In this document: positions 7,830 through 16,681 of the stretch, piece after piece
How the letters are laid out: each line of letters opens with the position of its first letter
How positions within the stretch are numbered: the first letter of the stretch is position 1
Assembly (NCBI GenBank): GCA_021787665.1
Contig: JAJYLN010000013.1
Location: 1 to 64,000, forward strand
Source of the DNA: a bacterium
Lineage (GTDB): Bacteria; JAMCPX01
Reading direction: 5' to 3'
DNA length: 64,000 bases
Notes under the pieces: generated by a model
Told to the model about the DNA's origin: nothing
Databases searched by the model: none
The model's input: the letters and a program-made list of their open reading frames with translations, nothing else
Program-made: the position numbers and the translations under genes

Positions 7830-9146
7830 ATGATGGTTTCCATGCGATCGAATGATGCTGCTATTTTGAAAAAAGTGTTCTTTTCTGGCGTTCATGCGGT
7901 GACGGGCTATGGGGCTGTTCATCATGCGGTACGTCCGACGACGCGCGGTATAGAGATTGCCGGCAAAGAGTACAGGTTCGGCTACTACAAAAAGATCATC
8001 GTTGTCGGAGCGGGCAAGGCTTCCTTTTCCATGGCGCGTGCAATCGATGAAGTCCTGGGCAGCCGTATCGACAACGGCATCGTCATAACAAAATACGGTT
8101 ACGCGGGCCGTTTGAAACATATCGATGTCTTTGAGGCAGGACATCCCTTCCCCGACCAAAACGGCATAGAGGCAACGAAGCGTCTGATGTCTCTCGCCGC
8201 TCATGTTGACCGATACACCCTTGTGCTCATGCTGCTTTCCGGCGGCGCCTCATCCTTGCTCGTAGCACCGGACGGCGTGTCGCTCAAGGATAAGATACTG
8301 ACGACCGCGCTCCTCCTACGATCGGGCGCAGGCATCGATGAATTGAATATTGTTCGGAAGCACCTCTCACGGGTGAAGGGGGGGAGGCTTGCAAGACTCT
8401 TTTATCCGGCCCGGACGGTCACTTTGATAATTTCTGATGTTATCGGAAATCGTCTCGGGAGCATCGGATCCGGCCCGACCGTGGAGGACACGTCGACACC
8501 TGCACAGGCGCTGGAGATACTCGACAGGTTCCATCTGAAAAAGGAGGTCCCTGCTGCGGTCATAACAAGGCTGGAGCAAAGGAATATGGGCCCTGCGGTA
8601 CGTCCCGGTCCAGCGCGGGCAAGGAACGTCATTATCGCAGACAATAGGAAAGCCGTTGATGCAGGTAAGGCAGAGTCACGGCGGCTCGGTCTGAGGCCGT
8701 TGATTCTGACCACCCGTCTGCACGGTGAAGCCCGAAGCGTGGGACATGAGCTTGCTGCTTTAGCACAGAGAACGGCAAACAGGAAATACCGGAAAAGCAG
8801 GCCAATCTGCATGATCAGTAGCGGCGAGACAACGGTCACTGTTCAAGGGACGGGGAAAGGCGGCAGAAGCCAGGAACTCGCCCTGGGCTTTGCAATCGAT
8901 ATCAGCGGCAAAAAAGGCATAACCCTGCTGTCTGCAGGGACCGACGGGACTGATGGCCCGACCGATGCAGCGGGGGCTCTCGTCGACGGAACTACCGCTG
9001 ACCGTATGGAGAGGTCTGGTATGGATCCGGCTGCATACCTCCTGAATAACGATTCTTATACGGTACTCGACCGCGTGGGGGCACTTTTCAGAACAGGTCC
9101 CACCGGTACCAATGTGATGGACATTCAGGTGATACTGGTGTCGTAG
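7830..9146 (+). CDS. Glycerate kinase, MOFRL family (glycerate 2-kinase type)
   Basis: The enzyme phosphorylates D-glycerate, usually to 2-phosphoglycerate in this family. The 438-residue product has the N-terminal DUF4147 Rossmann domain (IVVGAGKASFSMARAIDE near residue 55, LLSGGASSLL near 140, IISDVIGNRLGSIGSGPT near 200). The C-terminal MOFRL domain has SGGE-type ISSGETTVTVQGTGKGGRSQELAL near 335-360 and AGTDGTDGPTDAAGA near 375. Start candidates are ATG 7830, 7833 or 7842. It lies next to a glycosyltransferase with a GpgS-like domain, so recycling glycerate from a glycerate-based osmolyte is a reasonable inference. It is convergent with the next gene. Confidence 0.88.
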   Translation: MMVSMRSNDAAILKKVFFSGVHAVTGYGAVHHAVRPTTRGIEIAGKEYRFGYYKKIIVVGAGKASFSMARAIDEVLGSRIDNGIVITKYGYAGRLKHIDVFEAGHPFPDQNGIEATKRLMSLAAHVDRYTLVLMLLSGGASSLLVAPDGVSLKDKILTTALLLRSGAGIDELNIVRKHLSRVKGGRLARLFYPARTVTLIISDVIGNRLGSIGSGPTVEDTSTPAQALEILDRFHLKKEVPAAVITRLEQRNMGPAVRPGPARARNVIIADNRKAVDAGKAESRRLGLRPLILTTRLHGEARSVGHELAALAQRTANRKYRKSRPICMISSGETTVTVQGTGKGGRSQELALGFAIDISGKKGITLLSAGTDGTDGPTDAAGALVDGTTADRMERSGMDPAAYLLNNDSYTVLDRVGALFRTGPTGTNVMDIQVILVS

Positions 9147-9153
9147 GACCTGC

Positions 9154-9846
9154 TCATAGGTGCGATATGCCGTCGTCGTGGTCGCTCTTTGAGTTCTTGA
9201 TCGTCTTCTCGAGCCATTCTTTGACGATTTCCTTTGCTCCGAGGCCGAAGGCTATCGCGAGACCCAGGATCACGCCCCCGAAGGTGATGGAGAACGCCGC
9301 GACGATGACGTTCTTCCCTATCTCGAGTAGGTCGAGTGACACGAAGACGAAAAACACGATGACCGCAAACTTCGTCAGCCTGCCTATCGCCTTTGCGTGG
9401 GGGACATGTGAGCTCACTGCTGCGAGTACCACGATGCGGTCCAGGAAGTTGCCGAACAGATACCCTGCCGTAAAAATAATGATCGCTGCAATCAGCTTCG
9501 GCAGGTACAGGAAGAAGCCCGTTATGAGGTTGTCTATGGGCCCGAGTTTGAGCGCACTGAGACCGAGCATGAGGAAAACGAACACGATGAACCAGAAGAT
9601 AAACCGCTCAGCAATCGCACTCATGGTGGTGCCGCTGAACGCGACAGACAAGCCGGATCTTTCCCCGATCTCGTTCAGTTTTATAAGCTTGAAAATCCAC
9701 TTCGCCGCCTTGCCGAGGAGCCATGCGAGCAGAAACCCGATGATGATGACGAACAGCATGGTCAGGACATTGGGAATGTAGCTCACGACGGTATGATACC
9801 ACGCCAGGAACGGATCGATAACTATCGTGTGGAGAAATTTCATCAT
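9154..9846 (-). CDS. Conserved TM-helix membrane protein, mechanosensitive-channel-like
   Basis: The 230-residue protein has about five hydrophobic helices (near 20-50, 75-95, 108-135, 150-172, 180-205). It contains the glycine-spaced helix VLGLAIAFGLGAKEIVKEWLE-type pattern found in conserved-TM-helix proteins (CmpX type) and in the pore helix of small mechanosensitive channels. The MscS beta domain is missing. It lies 18 bases downstream of the GpgS/MgS fusion gene on the same strand, probably in its operon. Together with the osmolyte enzymes this suggests a role in osmotic response. Confidence 0.65.
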   Translation of the reverse strand: MMKFLHTIVIDPFLAWYHTVVSYIPNVLTMLFVIIIGFLLAWLLGKAAKWIFKLIKLNEIGERSGLSVAFSGTTMSAIAERFIFWFIVFVFLMLGLSALKLGPIDNLITGFFLYLPKLIAAIIIFTAGYLFGNFLDRIVVLAAVSSHVPHAKAIGRLTKFAVIVFFVFVSLDLLEIGKNVIVAAFSITFGGVILGLAIAFGLGAKEIVKEWLEKTIKNSKSDHDDGISHL

Positions 9847-9864: not shown

Positions 9865-12132
9865 TCACTCCCACATACCTTTCAGGAAAGGCTTCTGTTC
9901 AAGGAAGCTCTTCACGATCCCTTCTACCGACTCCTCTGCCTGCTGTGCAGAAGAATACAGGGTCTTATAGATAAAAGACGCAACCTTTCCCAGGTAAAGG
10001 GGCACCAACACCTTCAGGATGGAGTTCCTGTCCATCTTCTTCACATGAAACGCATAGGCGAACTCGTAGACGATCCTTGCCCAGAGGTCGTTCGGGAATT
10101 CCTTTGTGTCTGCCAGCTTCATAGTGTCCTGAAACGTGCCTTCCGAAACTATCGATCTCAGGATGCTCTCTATTGCCGAGAGTTCATCGGTAAAGCGGCG
10201 CTGCATCCTATCCACATCGACGGCTATCGGTTCTGGCACGGCCTCGTATACGAAGCCGTACAGTGAAACCGACGTTATCTCGCCTGATTCAGACCATGTT
10301 GACCGGTATGTTTCCATGAGCATAAACGTGGTCCCTACTACCTGCATAAACATATCGACCAGGTCCACGGCCGGGTCCTTTGCTTTGTGGATCTTGGTAC
10401 CAAGGTAAGACTGACACACTTTGTATCCTTCCGCAAGGGCAAGGGTCGAAAGCCAGATGTCGATACCGAACCTGGCGATGTCCGTGTCCCAAACCGGCTT
10501 CTCGAGGTAGGTCTTGAACAGATTCCTGGATATGCAAAAATCGCCCCCTATCGGCTGCCTGAGCGACCTGCCGTAAAGTGCCGTCGTAAGCGGATAGATT
10601 ATCATGTTGGTAATGGTGCCGTCGTACTTGTATCGCGAGTAGTACGGGGCCACGAAGTCGTATTGGTTATACAGGATCGGGCCGAGTAGGTTCTCGATCC
10701 ACTCAGGGGAAATACTCCGCAGGTCCGCATCGACGAGCACGCACGCCTTTGCTCCATACTCCTGGGCCTTTTCCAGCACAAGCTTCACCGCGCTCCCTTT
10801 CCCGGGAATGCCGGTATAGGGAATGGAGAGCTTGTGGACCGGGAACAGAGGGTGCGTCGTGTAAACCACGTTCGGGTATTTTCCGGTAAAGGTCTTCACG
10901 ATGTCGGATGTCCCGTCCGTGGAGCCTCCGTCGGAGTTGATGATCACACACCGGCTCGAGGGGAAGTATTCCCTGACACCGACGGTAACAGCCTCGAGTA
11001 CGTGGGGGATAGTATCGGCGTTATTGAAGCTCGGTATGCCCACGACAATATCGAAATCACCCTGATCTGCAGAGACGCGGGCGGTATGCTGCGGATGGTT
11101 TTGCTCCTCTTTTTTCAGGGACGCAACAGCAGGCCTCTCGTGCTCCTCCAGAACCACTTTATCGACCCGGCTTGCGCCTGCCGAGAAGAGGGACTGGAAG
11201 TATTCTGTGCTCGGACTGTCGCGGAGGTCCAGCTTTTTGTCCTCCTGCAACCGTCTCATAAAGGTCTGGAGAATGCCGAAGGCCATCCTGCTCAGTTCGG
11301 CGAGTCGCTGGTTCCGATGGATGCGTGTCTCAAGGTCGACCTGCGCCATTGCGTCGATACCGATGAGCTTTAACAACGAAATGAGCATGCCTATCTCGAT
11401 TCCGTACCCGGTTGGGAAGGGGATCTGCTCGAACACCCGCTTGAAGCCCGCGTACTCCCCTGCGAGAGGCTGGATGAAGCCTGCAAGCTCAGGATAGAAC
11501 GCGTTGATAAGAGGACGCGCGAGGAGCTCGGTGACTCTTCCTCCTCCTACGGGCATGAACTCCTGCCCAGCCTGCAGCGGCCTCATATAGAAGCCCTTGG
11601 TAAAGAGGATATTTTCGTTCCTGAGGATCGGACCGATCAGACCGTAGACGAACCGCGGGTCTATGTTCCGGATGTCCGTGTCAATCCATACGATAAGGTC
11701 ACCTTCGAGGACGAACAGACTCTTGAAGAGCGCTTCTCCCTTGCCGCTGTATGAGCCGAGGGATGGCATGATGTCTTTGTGGATGTAGACCTTCGCTCCG
11801 AGCTCCTGCGCGATGTCACGCGTCCTGTCGCTCGAAGAGCTGTCGATCACGACGATCTCGTCGAGCAGCCCGGTGTTGTCGTAGAGGATGGATTTGAGGA
11901 TGGTGATGATCCGTCGTATGGTTGCCTCCTCGTTCAGAGCGGGCAGGCACAAGCTGATCTTCAGACCGCGTTTTTGCTTCAGCACCGCGAGGGACTGGAG
12001 GTTGGAGAAATCCTGGCTGTGGAACGTATGGGTCTCGAGCCACTGGGTGAGCTGGTATTTGGGCATACCATACATGTAAATCAGTTTGTCCGGAAAATGC
12101 AATAAGAAAGGGGAAATTTCTTCTTGCTCCAC
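9865..12132 (-). CDS. Fusion of GpgS-like and MgS-like glycosyltransferase domains
   Basis: The 755-residue protein carries two GT-A domains. Residues about 55-300 match glucosyl-3-phosphoglycerate synthase: LPALNEEATI (63-72), DTD (151-153), the phosphoglycerate-binding GGGRVTELLARP (196-207), QPLAGEYAG (221-229) and TGYGIEIG (241-248). Residues about 358-750 form a second transferase: VGIPSFNNADTI (364-375), metal-binding DAD (468-470), QPIGGD (526-531), RFGID (554-558) and TKIHK (579-583). That order resembles mannosylglycerate synthase (GT78). A linker of about 55 residues joins them. The start is GTG 12132 with a GAGGAG site upstream. I infer synthesis of a glucosylated or mannosyl-glucosylated glycerate; the second domain's substrate is not proven. 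Confidence 0.75.
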   Translation of the reverse strand: MEQEEISPFLLHFPDKLIYMYGMPKYQLTQWLETHTFHSQDFSNLQSLAVLKQKRGLKISLCLPALNEEATIRRIITILKSILYDNTGLLDEIVVIDSSSSDRTRDIAQELGAKVYIHKDIMPSLGSYSGKGEALFKSLFVLEGDLIVWIDTDIRNIDPRFVYGLIGPILRNENILFTKGFYMRPLQAGQEFMPVGGGRVTELLARPLINAFYPELAGFIQPLAGEYAGFKRVFEQIPFPTGYGIEIGMLISLLKLIGIDAMAQVDLETRIHRNQRLAELSRMAFGILQTFMRRLQEDKKLDLRDSPSTEYFQSLFSAGASRVDKVVLEEHERPAVASLKKEEQNHPQHTARVSADQGDFDIVVGIPSFNNADTIPHVLEAVTVGVREYFPSSRCVIINSDGGSTDGTSDIVKTFTGKYPNVVYTTHPLFPVHKLSIPYTGIPGKGSAVKLVLEKAQEYGAKACVLVDADLRSISPEWIENLLGPILYNQYDFVAPYYSRYKYDGTITNMIIYPLTTALYGRSLRQPIGGDFCISRNLFKTYLEKPVWDTDIARFGIDIWLSTLALAEGYKVCQSYLGTKIHKAKDPAVDLVDMFMQVVGTTFMLMETYRSTWSESGEITSVSLYGFVYEAVPEPIAVDVDRMQRRFTDELSAIESILRSIVSEGTFQDTMKLADTKEFPNDLWARIVYEFAYAFHVKKMDRNSILKVLVPLYLGKVASFIYKTLYSSAQQAEESVEGIVKSFLEQKPFLKGMWE

Positions 12133-12173: not shown

Positions 12174-12678
12174 ATGACAGGGAGACTCAGAAGAAAGCAG
12201 CTGTTGCTCGCAAAACTTTTTCTGGGCAGCAAGCCGGACCTCTCTGCCGGACTTGTTCTGTACGGGCTTGCGCCCTGTATAGCAATGGTCATTGTCTTTA
12301 CCTATCTTGCTCAGGGCAACGTGGCCCTTGCGATCGTACTCGTTGCAATGAATTCCATCATTCAGATGCTGCTTATTACGGTCTACGCGAAACTTCTGCT
12401 GGGCAATGTCCATTTCGATGTTCAGGTAGTCGGAGAGAGTGTGCTCCTGTATCTCGGTGTCCCGCTGATAGCGGGCGTTCTGACGAGGTCCCTTAGGCAG
12501 GGACTTCGATATAGCCATTGCCATAGCCATTACCGCTTTCAATCCAACCGTCGCGCTCGCAACGGTCATCGGTCCCCTTATTGAAGTCCCTGTCATGCTT
12601 GTGCTGGTATGGTTTGCGAAAATGACCGGACCCAGGCTCTTTCAACGGAACGGGTCAGAGAAGGGGGTACCCCTGTAG
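12174..12678 (+). pseudogene. Decayed ACR3-family arsenite efflux permease
   Basis: Two pieces of an ACR3 permease lie in different frames. Piece one (12174 to about 12500) reads KPDLSAGLVLYGLAPCIAMV, then VYAKLLLG and VGESVLLYLGVPLIAGVLTR, matching the middle of ACR3. Piece two (about 12502-12678, shifted frame) reads DFDIAIAIAITAFN, ALATVIGPLIEVPVMLVLV and a TAG stop, matching the last helices. The N-terminal third and roughly 100 residues between the pieces are missing, along with the frame. The gene is therefore dead by deletion, not by one sequencing error. No arsR or arsC lies nearby. Confidence 0.8.
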
Positions 12679-14813: not shown

Positions 14814-16031
14814 CTACATCTCCATGACCGTTCTGCCTCTGTTCAGCATCGCGTACCACACGAACAGGTAGTCGCGTATCTGCCTGGTGATGAGGAAATT
14901 GTTCCGCACATACTGCCGTGCGTTGTCTCCCAGGCCTTTTGCCATGGCGGGATCGTTCAGTATCTGCCGTATCCTGAAAGCGGCACCCTCCTCGGAGTTT
15001 ACCAGGAAACCGTTGACCCCGCTGATGATCTGCGACGGTATGCCTCCCACATTCCCTCCGATAACGGGTCTGCCTTTCCACATCGCTTCCGTGACCGTAA
15101 GACCGAAGCCCTCTTTCAGGGACTTCTGCAATACCACGGTTGCCATTCTCTGGAGGGCATTGATGTCCCGGTCGCTGAAGGCCGGCAGCAGCAAGATATG
15201 GATGTCCGGATCATTGCCGGCAAATTCTTTTACCTCCCGGATCACGGCGTCTCCCTCGGGGTCGTCTGTTGCGGAGCTGCCTGCAAGCACCAGTCTGCAG
15301 TCGTTGTACTTTTTTACCAACCTGTACGCCCGAATAACGCCGTTCGGGTCCTTGAACCTGTCGAACCTCGATACCTGGAGCAGGGTGGGTTTGTCGCGGG
15401 GTATTCCGAATCTGTCAGCCACCTCCGCAACTTCCGCCTCAGTCAGGTCCCTGTTCTTGTCACTAAGCGGGTCTATCGTGGGCGTAATGATGAACTCGTC
15501 TATGGACATTTGCTGCGCAAATTTTGATACGGAAAAAATTGCTGCATCGTAGCTCCCTGCGTACGTCGAAATCCTTTCCCATACCTCCCGGACGGGGTTG
15601 GATACATCGATATGACACCTCCATATCCACAGGCCGCTGCGTCTGAATTTTATGAGCGGGACAGGCTGGGGGTCGTGGACGAATACCACGTCGGCATCCA
15701 GGTCCAGGGTCTCTGCATTCTTCGCATTGATGGCCTCGTGGTACGCCCACATGTCGTCCGTAAATACCTCCTGCAGCCCCTGCAGGGCGTTGTGGATCTT
15801 CTTCGTAATACTGAAAAACCTCTGGTCTCCTTCTATCGTTTCCCATCTGACCGCAAGGCCAAGTCCATCCAGCAGCGGGGTCATCCTGTTGAGTATCTCG
15901 GCCACACCGCCCCCGGACTTCGTGGAGTTGATATGGAGAAACCGCTTTTTGGAAAGCCTGTCCGAAAGTTTGTAAATGAGCTGGAGGTCTGCCTTCGGGG
16001 ATATGCCGGTATAATCCTGCAATCGTATCAT
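14814..16031 (-). CDS. treT: Trehalose glycosyltransferring synthase (TreT-like, GT4)
   Basis: TreT reversibly joins NDP-glucose and free glucose into trehalose without a phosphorylated intermediate. The 405-residue GT-B protein shows NSTKSGGGVAEILNRMTPLL near 36-55, the HDPQ motif and WRCHID near 115-140, and TIDPLSDKNRDL near 183. The donor site has VSRFDRFKDPNGVI near 215 and SLKEGFGLTVTEAMWKGRPVIGG in two adjacent blocks near 310-330. Its ATG overlaps the DUF5752 stop by 4 bases and otsAB starts one base after its stop, which is a tightly coupled operon. A generic trehalose-phosphorylase-like GT4 is the alternative. Confidence 0.85.
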   Translation of the reverse strand: MIRLQDYTGISPKADLQLIYKLSDRLSKKRFLHINSTKSGGGVAEILNRMTPLLDGLGLAVRWETIEGDQRFFSITKKIHNALQGLQEVFTDDMWAYHEAINAKNAETLDLDADVVFVHDPQPVPLIKFRRSGLWIWRCHIDVSNPVREVWERISTYAGSYDAAIFSVSKFAQQMSIDEFIITPTIDPLSDKNRDLTEAEVAEVADRFGIPRDKPTLLQVSRFDRFKDPNGVIRAYRLVKKYNDCRLVLAGSSATDDPEGDAVIREVKEFAGNDPDIHILLLPAFSDRDINALQRMATVVLQKSLKEGFGLTVTEAMWKGRPVIGGNVGGIPSQIISGVNGFLVNSEEGAAFRIRQILNDPAMAKGLGDNARQYVRNNFLITRQIRDYLFVWYAMLNRGRTVMEM

Positions 16032-16681
16032 AGGCTCTCCATGTCCTTCTGGACCTTCTGCTCCACGATCTGTACGATTAGCTTTCTCATACCCTCTATG
16101 TCGTACATGAACGGGTCTATGTGCCGGAGCCTCCCGGAAAGCTCTGGTTCGTTCGCCTTCTCGCTGAGCCAGGTCGAGAAATCGTCGGGTCCGTACACGC
16201 CCCGGCTCCTCCCCTCGTAGAAGTGGTAGTAGATGGAGCTGCTGTCGACATACTTTAAGCCTTGCAAGAACTCAGCAAGGTTATGGGCCACGATACCTGT
16301 CGGGAACACGATGGTCGCTGACTCGTTAAAATGGAACTCATTGCCCGCAAGAGCAGGCCTTGGCTCGGGGAAATGTCCGAGATAGTCCTCGATCACGCCG
16401 ACGAGGCGCGTCCTGAGGTCCGCTATCTTATCGTAGGCGTAGGGGTCTATGATCGCGAGATGCTCGGACAGTGTCTTTTCCTCCAGGGCCTCTCCGACCC
16501 ATTGGGCGAAGTCGTTCGTGTACTCGAGCATGTGTCCTTTGAGGAAGTATTGGTAGGTGTGGTGAAAGATGGACGCTTCGCTCACTTCGCTGATACCCGA
16601 CATCAGCTCCCTGATCGTTACGGCCCTCCTCTGTGTCGCCTTCAGTATGTTCGTGCATTGTTTAAATACGAACGGTTGCAT
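16028..16681 (-). CDS. DUF5752 family protein, first gene of the trehalose operon
   Basis: The 217-residue soluble protein appears to consist of two related halves. Each has a hydrophobic-helix pair and a block of the form HxxYxF...F..W (HHTYQYFLKGHMLEYTNDFAQW near 40-60, YYHFYEGRSRGVYGPDDFSTW near 150-170), followed by a DPY/DPF motif (IIDPYAYDKI, HIDPFMYDIE). I recognise it as DUF5752, a family whose genes often sit beside trehalose synthases; its biochemistry is not known to me. Its 4-base overlap with treT supports a shared role. The internal duplication is my own observation. Confidence 0.75.
   Translation of the reverse strand: MQPFVFKQCTNILKATQRRAVTIRELMSGISEVSEASIFHHTYQYFLKGHMLEYTNDFAQWVGEALEEKTLSEHLAIIDPYAYDKIADLRTRLVGVIEDYLGHFPEPRPALAGNEFHFNESATIVFPTGIVAHNLAEFLQGLKYVDSSSIYYHFYEGRSRGVYGPDDFSTWLSEKANEPELSGRLRHIDPFMYDIEGMRKLIVQIVEQKVQKDMESL

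Follow-up and report, generated by a model that had tools for sequence, protein, structure and literature searches.

The window, by which we mean the whole 64,000-nucleotide stretch of DNA that was analysed, carries on its minus strand a gene in which two glycosyltransferases, referred to here as the N-half and the C-half, are joined in one open frame. This gene and its neighbours are as follows:

7830..9146, plus strand: glycerate 2-kinase (DUF4147 + MOFRL), convergent; also found near some stand-alone C-half genes
9154..9846, minus strand: 230-aa membrane protein with PF05552 MS_channel_1st_1 (MscTM), a conserved neighbour of the C-half family
9865..12132, minus strand: fused glycosyltransferase CDS, 755 aa; open frame with a GTG start and SD
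9868..11073, minus strand: C-terminal enzyme, residues 354-755; MgS-fold transferase from fold and residues, probably Ggs-type
11074..11232, minus strand: linker, residues 301-353; fast evolving (45-71% identity)
11233..12045, minus strand: N-terminal enzyme, residues 30-300; putative GpgS, GT81-like, from an NCBIfam model and catalytic residues
12689..14812, minus strand: OtsA-OtsB, a trehalose-6-phosphate synthase/phosphatase; in the ancestral operon, the gene lying upstream
14814..16031, minus strand: TreT trehalose glycosyltransferring synthase
16028..16681, minus strand: DUF5752 protein, first in the order DUF5752-TreT-OtsAB-(C-half)-MscTM that is common to genome G268

The 755-aa frame opens with a GTG codon preceded by GAGGAG as a ribosome-binding site, and its first ~22 residues are uncertain because the related fusions of four other genomes, which are 76-82% identical to that of the window, start at or near its residue 23. 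Within the fusion set, each half has a pN/pS of about 0.1 to 0.19. A chance ORF or a frameshift artefact was rejected because the same fusion is found in the four other genomes and purifying selection acts on both halves; the fusion of two transferases described at 9865-12132 in the original prediction is therefore real, with its frame on the minus strand. Full-length AlphaFold modelling of the five fusions gave a pLDDT of 43.7 and a pTM of 0.30, at which the packing of the two halves is not readable from the model.

The flanking genes are those first claimed for the locus (a glycerate kinase, a channel-like protein, and trehalose genes), and they support its placement in an osmolyte island. 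The MscTM gene begins 18 bp past the stop codon of the fusion, has a strong SD, and likely shares an operon with it. Between OtsAB and the fusion lies a remnant of an ACR3 arsenite efflux gene (12174-12584, plus strand; SBF domain, ~100 residues), which scores 84.9 bits against TIGR00832 (cut-off 282.8). The OtsAB-to-fusion gap measures 17-51 bp in two relatives (L006, L007).

By the curated NCBIfam cut-off, the N-half is predicted to be a glucosyl-3-phosphoglycerate synthase (GpgS, GT81), scoring 410.7 bits against the model for this enzyme (NF010496; curated equivalog cut-off 262). Its best PDB match is the Rubrobacter MpgS (3f1y, 1e-68), and mycobacterial GpgS is matched at 1e-60. The catalytic residues of the Mycobacterium tuberculosis GpgS are K114, D134-D136, V186-T187, E232, H258, and M269 (PMC2581804), for which alignment gives K131, D151-D153, V200-T201, E246, H272, and M283 as the equivalents in the N-half; the Lys-Asp-Glu network, the DxD, the metal His, and the Val-Thr that contacts 3-phosphoglycerate are all kept (K131, D151/D153, V200-T201, E246, H272). 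Model score and aligned residues support the GpgS assignment that had been made for this half. The donor loop is PLAGE in all five fusions, not the PLSGE of GpgS, whose Ser has been proposed to exclude mannose (PMC2581804). This loop does not define the GpgS family but bears on the donor; PLAGE is also present in the Rubrobacter MpgS and in two Usp-GpgS fusions, with Ser in nearly all other sampled GpgS relatives, and because the N-half shares it with the Rubrobacter mannosyl-3-phosphoglycerate synthase, its choice of donor may be relaxed.

In the C-half, the motif order DAD / QPIGGD / RFGID / KIH that was originally reported is present and aligns with D100-D102, L163, D192, and H217 of mannosylglycerate synthase (MgS). 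The AlphaFold model of this half (pLDDT 91.6) matches MgS (2bo4) from end to end (Z 36.6, 354 residues, rmsd 3.2) and GpgS over 227 residues (Z 21.5). When a profile of 49 C-half relatives was searched against the PDB, GpgS was matched at 1e-14 and MgS at 8e-14, the MgS match extending into the C-terminal helical domain and the GpgS match stopping short. The C-half residues matching those of MgS are K445, D468-D470, R500, D504, I507-T508, G529, D558, H582, and M594, and the active sites of both halves are intact; across the family, MgS positions K76, D100, D102, R131, D135, I138, T139, G164, D192, H217, and M229 are kept in 47-49 of the 49 members. In MgS, I138-T139 bind the glycerate carboxylate, as their counterparts do in GpgS (PMC2581804). 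An ordinary GT2 enzyme is ruled out by the fold (MgS Z 36.6) and the conserved residues, and in comparison by structure and alignment the C-half does not lie nearest to unrelated GT2 enzymes and retains its acceptor site. Its sequence matches PF00535 and reaches 26.6 bits against PF21969 MGS_GT, under the cut-off of 27 (25 of the 49 relatives match this model at E<=0.01); with 15-17% identity to MgS besides, the C-half does not qualify by sequence as an orthologue of that enzyme. The model accordingly describes an MgS-fold enzyme with a predicted D-glycerate pocket, and the earlier assignment to MgS (GT78) holds for the fold and for the metal- and glycerate-binding residues but fails for sequence orthology.

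This pocket bears on what the two halves might do together. The conserved pocket in which the C-half would hold its acceptor is that of an enzyme using free D-glycerate, which makes the mannosyl-glucosyl-glycerate product that had been suggested unlikely. That the halves act in series at all, the C-half adding a second sugar to the N-half product to yield mannosyl-glucosyl-glycerate or diglucosylglycerate, appears quite unlikely to us: fusions often join consecutive steps, and MggS- or MggA-like transferases are found at some C-half or GpgS loci, but the equivalents of R131, D135, I138, and T139 in the MgS D-glycerate pocket are invariant or nearly so, MggS is a GT4 enzyme of unrelated fold, and loci likely to make a disaccharide carry an MggS- or MggA-like gene besides the C-half gene (L052, L059, L062, L063, L066, L070). 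It is likewise rather improbable that the single polypeptide channels a sugar-glycerate into an undescribed disaccharide solute, the C-half taking the N-half product or, with a relaxed PLAGE loop, glucose and mannose being mixed. A still more remote proposal has the C-half using another small hydroxy-acid acceptor or working chiefly as a domain that dimerises or regulates the GpgS half; it draws on the breadth of the C-half family, with its paralogues, and on the crystallisation of MgS with lactate (2y4j title), and we judge it highly improbable given a full catalytic residue set under purifying selection and a context of glycerate and GpgS/GpgP genes.

The fusion turned up in five genomes, all of one family, and among 386 genomes sampled across the domain no case of both halves in one frame was found outside that family. 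Stand-alone C-half relatives are present in 37 of the same 386 genomes, and of 148 genomes sampled from one other phylum, 69 have C-half relatives. The C-half family is widespread and has no specific NCBIfam name; because it is large, with two or three paralogues in some genomes, functions within it may differ. Separate C-half and GpgS genes adjoin, the C-half gene first, in three genomes (L062, L063, L070). A quick tree groups the fusion C-half with loci that hold MscTM, GpgS, and a phosphatase (SH-aLRT 95). It is plausible that the archaeal-type GpgS was at some point replaced by a bacterial one, which then became fused with the C-half gene. An alignment that combined fusions with stand-alone halves (A3) set stand-alone GpgS onto the C-half and was excluded from use.

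Other joined frames were seen in the sampled genomes. A 1314-aa protein of G389 (L166:294-4238, minus strand) has a C-half-like transferase at residues 21-440 and TreT at 885-1297, and G431 and G395 have open frames of 1337-1352 aa that, seen by length alone, are candidates for the same C-half-like/TreT fusion. GpgS was seen fused to Usp (Usp-GpgS; L056, L094), to PTS EIIA (GpgS-PTS EIIA; L068, L073), and to a histidine phosphatase (L079, L081, L083), the types at L073, L081, and L083 having been assigned by similarity and length; the proteins with the histidine phosphatase are likely GpgS-GpgP fusions.

The neighbours of stand-alone C-half genes point to glucosylglycerate. Among 55 such loci, an archaeal-type GpgS (NF040724-like) was present at 14, an MPGP-family phosphatase at 11, a bacterial GpgS accompanied by a histidine phosphatase at four, and MscTM at 16, for totals of 18 loci with GpgS-type genes and about 15 with phosphatases, and archaeal GpgS, MPGP phosphatase, and MscTM were found at none of 22 GpgS-only loci; these counts depend on the loci sampled and ignore kinship. 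TreT, OtsAB, DUF5752, or glycerate kinase genes accompany the C-half gene at several of the 55. In G268 the order is DUF5752-TreT-OtsAB-ClC-(C-half)-MscTM, a chloride channel standing in place of the window's GpgS half, and genes for archaeal GpgS, glycerate kinase, and MPGP phosphatase lie within 20 kb. At some loci of relatives, then, GpgS-type and phosphatase genes accompany the C-half gene; in the window GpgS occurs only as the fusion and the phosphatase is unlinked. Glucosylglycerate genes are the neighbours of the C-half in other genomes, so that it is better read as Ggs-type than as MgS. Across distant groups the C-half gene is followed by a membrane protein of 230-280 aa with an MscS-type conserved TM helix (L046, L047, L050, L051, L161-L164, L167, L168, L170, L173, and the window), possibly a partner in osmolyte efflux or sensing. 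In several glucosylglycerate-type operons a gene of 387-389 aa directly precedes the C-half gene (for example L161:5132-6295 and L167:4940-6109, both plus strand), for which no Pfam match was found.

The phosphatase step that the original prediction missed is probably supplied from another part of the genome, by a gene of the MPGP family (C1:37776-38573; 199.7 bits, cut-off 164.75); the statement that no phosphatase is obvious nearby was right insofar as this gene is unlinked to the fusion. An MPGP-family phosphatase is present in seven of nine genomes of the family, including some relatives where no fusion was found. For the donors, the genome encodes GlgC, above its cut-off, and also a ManC-like GDP-mannose enzyme. 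A search limited to the GMP_PMI type of mannose guanylyltransferase gave no match in G268 or G177, which have the nearest operon arrangement, and glucose is therefore favoured, although not proven. Were both halves to use mannose, the N-half would yield mannosyl-3-phosphoglycerate and the C-half mannosylglycerate directly; Rhodothermus marinus has two mannosylglycerate routes, unfused. The PLAGE loop of the N-half's best PDB match, a Gly in the C-half at the position of the mannose-excluding Ser210 of GpgS, as in MgS, the membership of the phosphatase in the mannosyl-3-phosphoglycerate phosphatase family, and the ManC-like gene would all agree with this. We nonetheless consider it unlikely, as NF010496 places the N-half in GpgS, GpgS models give the best scores for the genes that neighbour the C-half family, G268 and G177 lack the GMP_PMI match, and the C-half lacks MgS-level sequence identity.

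We therefore favour, with moderate confidence, a GpgS and a Ggs-type enzyme on one polypeptide that provide two routes to glucosylglycerate, and we infer glucose as the sugar of both. The N-half would transfer glucose from a nucleotide sugar to 3-phosphoglycerate, and the glucosyl-3-phosphoglycerate so formed would be dephosphorylated to glucosylglycerate by the unlinked MPGP-family phosphatase. The C-half, as a Ggs-type enzyme with the MgS fold, would transfer glucose directly onto D-glycerate and reach glucosylglycerate in one step. The fusion would then couple two alternative routes, encoded by separate genes elsewhere, inside a trehalose/osmolyte operon, with whose genes it would be expressed. 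In Persephonella marina, gpgS, gpgP, and ggs reportedly form a single operon, and glucosylglycerate is made there by two routes, one in two steps and one straight from ADP-glucose and D-glycerate; those C-half loci that hold GpgS and an MPGP phosphatase have the composition of this operon. GpgS and Ggs have reportedly also been characterised in Petrotoga mobilis, and a genome that we take to be of this species has one GpgS and one C-half homologue, in line with that pair. From its gene context, the C-half family is probably Ggs.

We regard the locus as a fused variant of a known pathway, probably that of glucosylglycerate, and not as a system of a new kind. It is unexplained why certain bacteria maintain two routes to one solute, and the fusion, which suggests joint use or co-regulation, offers one clonable protein for testing the joint use of both. 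Fold and gene neighbourhood, moreover, tie a large transferase family that has no specific NCBIfam name to D-glycerate glycosylation.

Among known systems, the N-half resembles GpgS (GT81; M. tuberculosis Rv1208, Petrotoga mobilis) in family model score and catalytic residues and differs in being fused to a second transferase and in having PLAGE at the sugar-discriminating loop. The C-half resembles MgS (GT78; Rhodothermus marinus, 2bo4) in its whole-length fold, its C-terminal helical domain, and its metal, donor, and D-glycerate residues, and departs from it in sequence (15-17% identity; MGS_GT 26.6 against 27), including the replacement of W189 by Phe and Y220 by Lys. With Ggs (Persephonella marina, Petrotoga mobilis; Fernandes 2007 and 2010) it is expected to share the one-step use of D-glycerate, and the operon of ggs with gpgS and gpgP in P. 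marina is like the loci of C-half relatives; Ggs is encoded by a separate gene, unlike the fused C-half, and its proposed kinship to the C-half is read from gene context. The Usp-GpgS, GpgS-PTS EIIA, and GpgS-histidine phosphatase proteins likewise join GpgS to a partner, but in none of them is that partner, as it is here, a glycosyltransferase.
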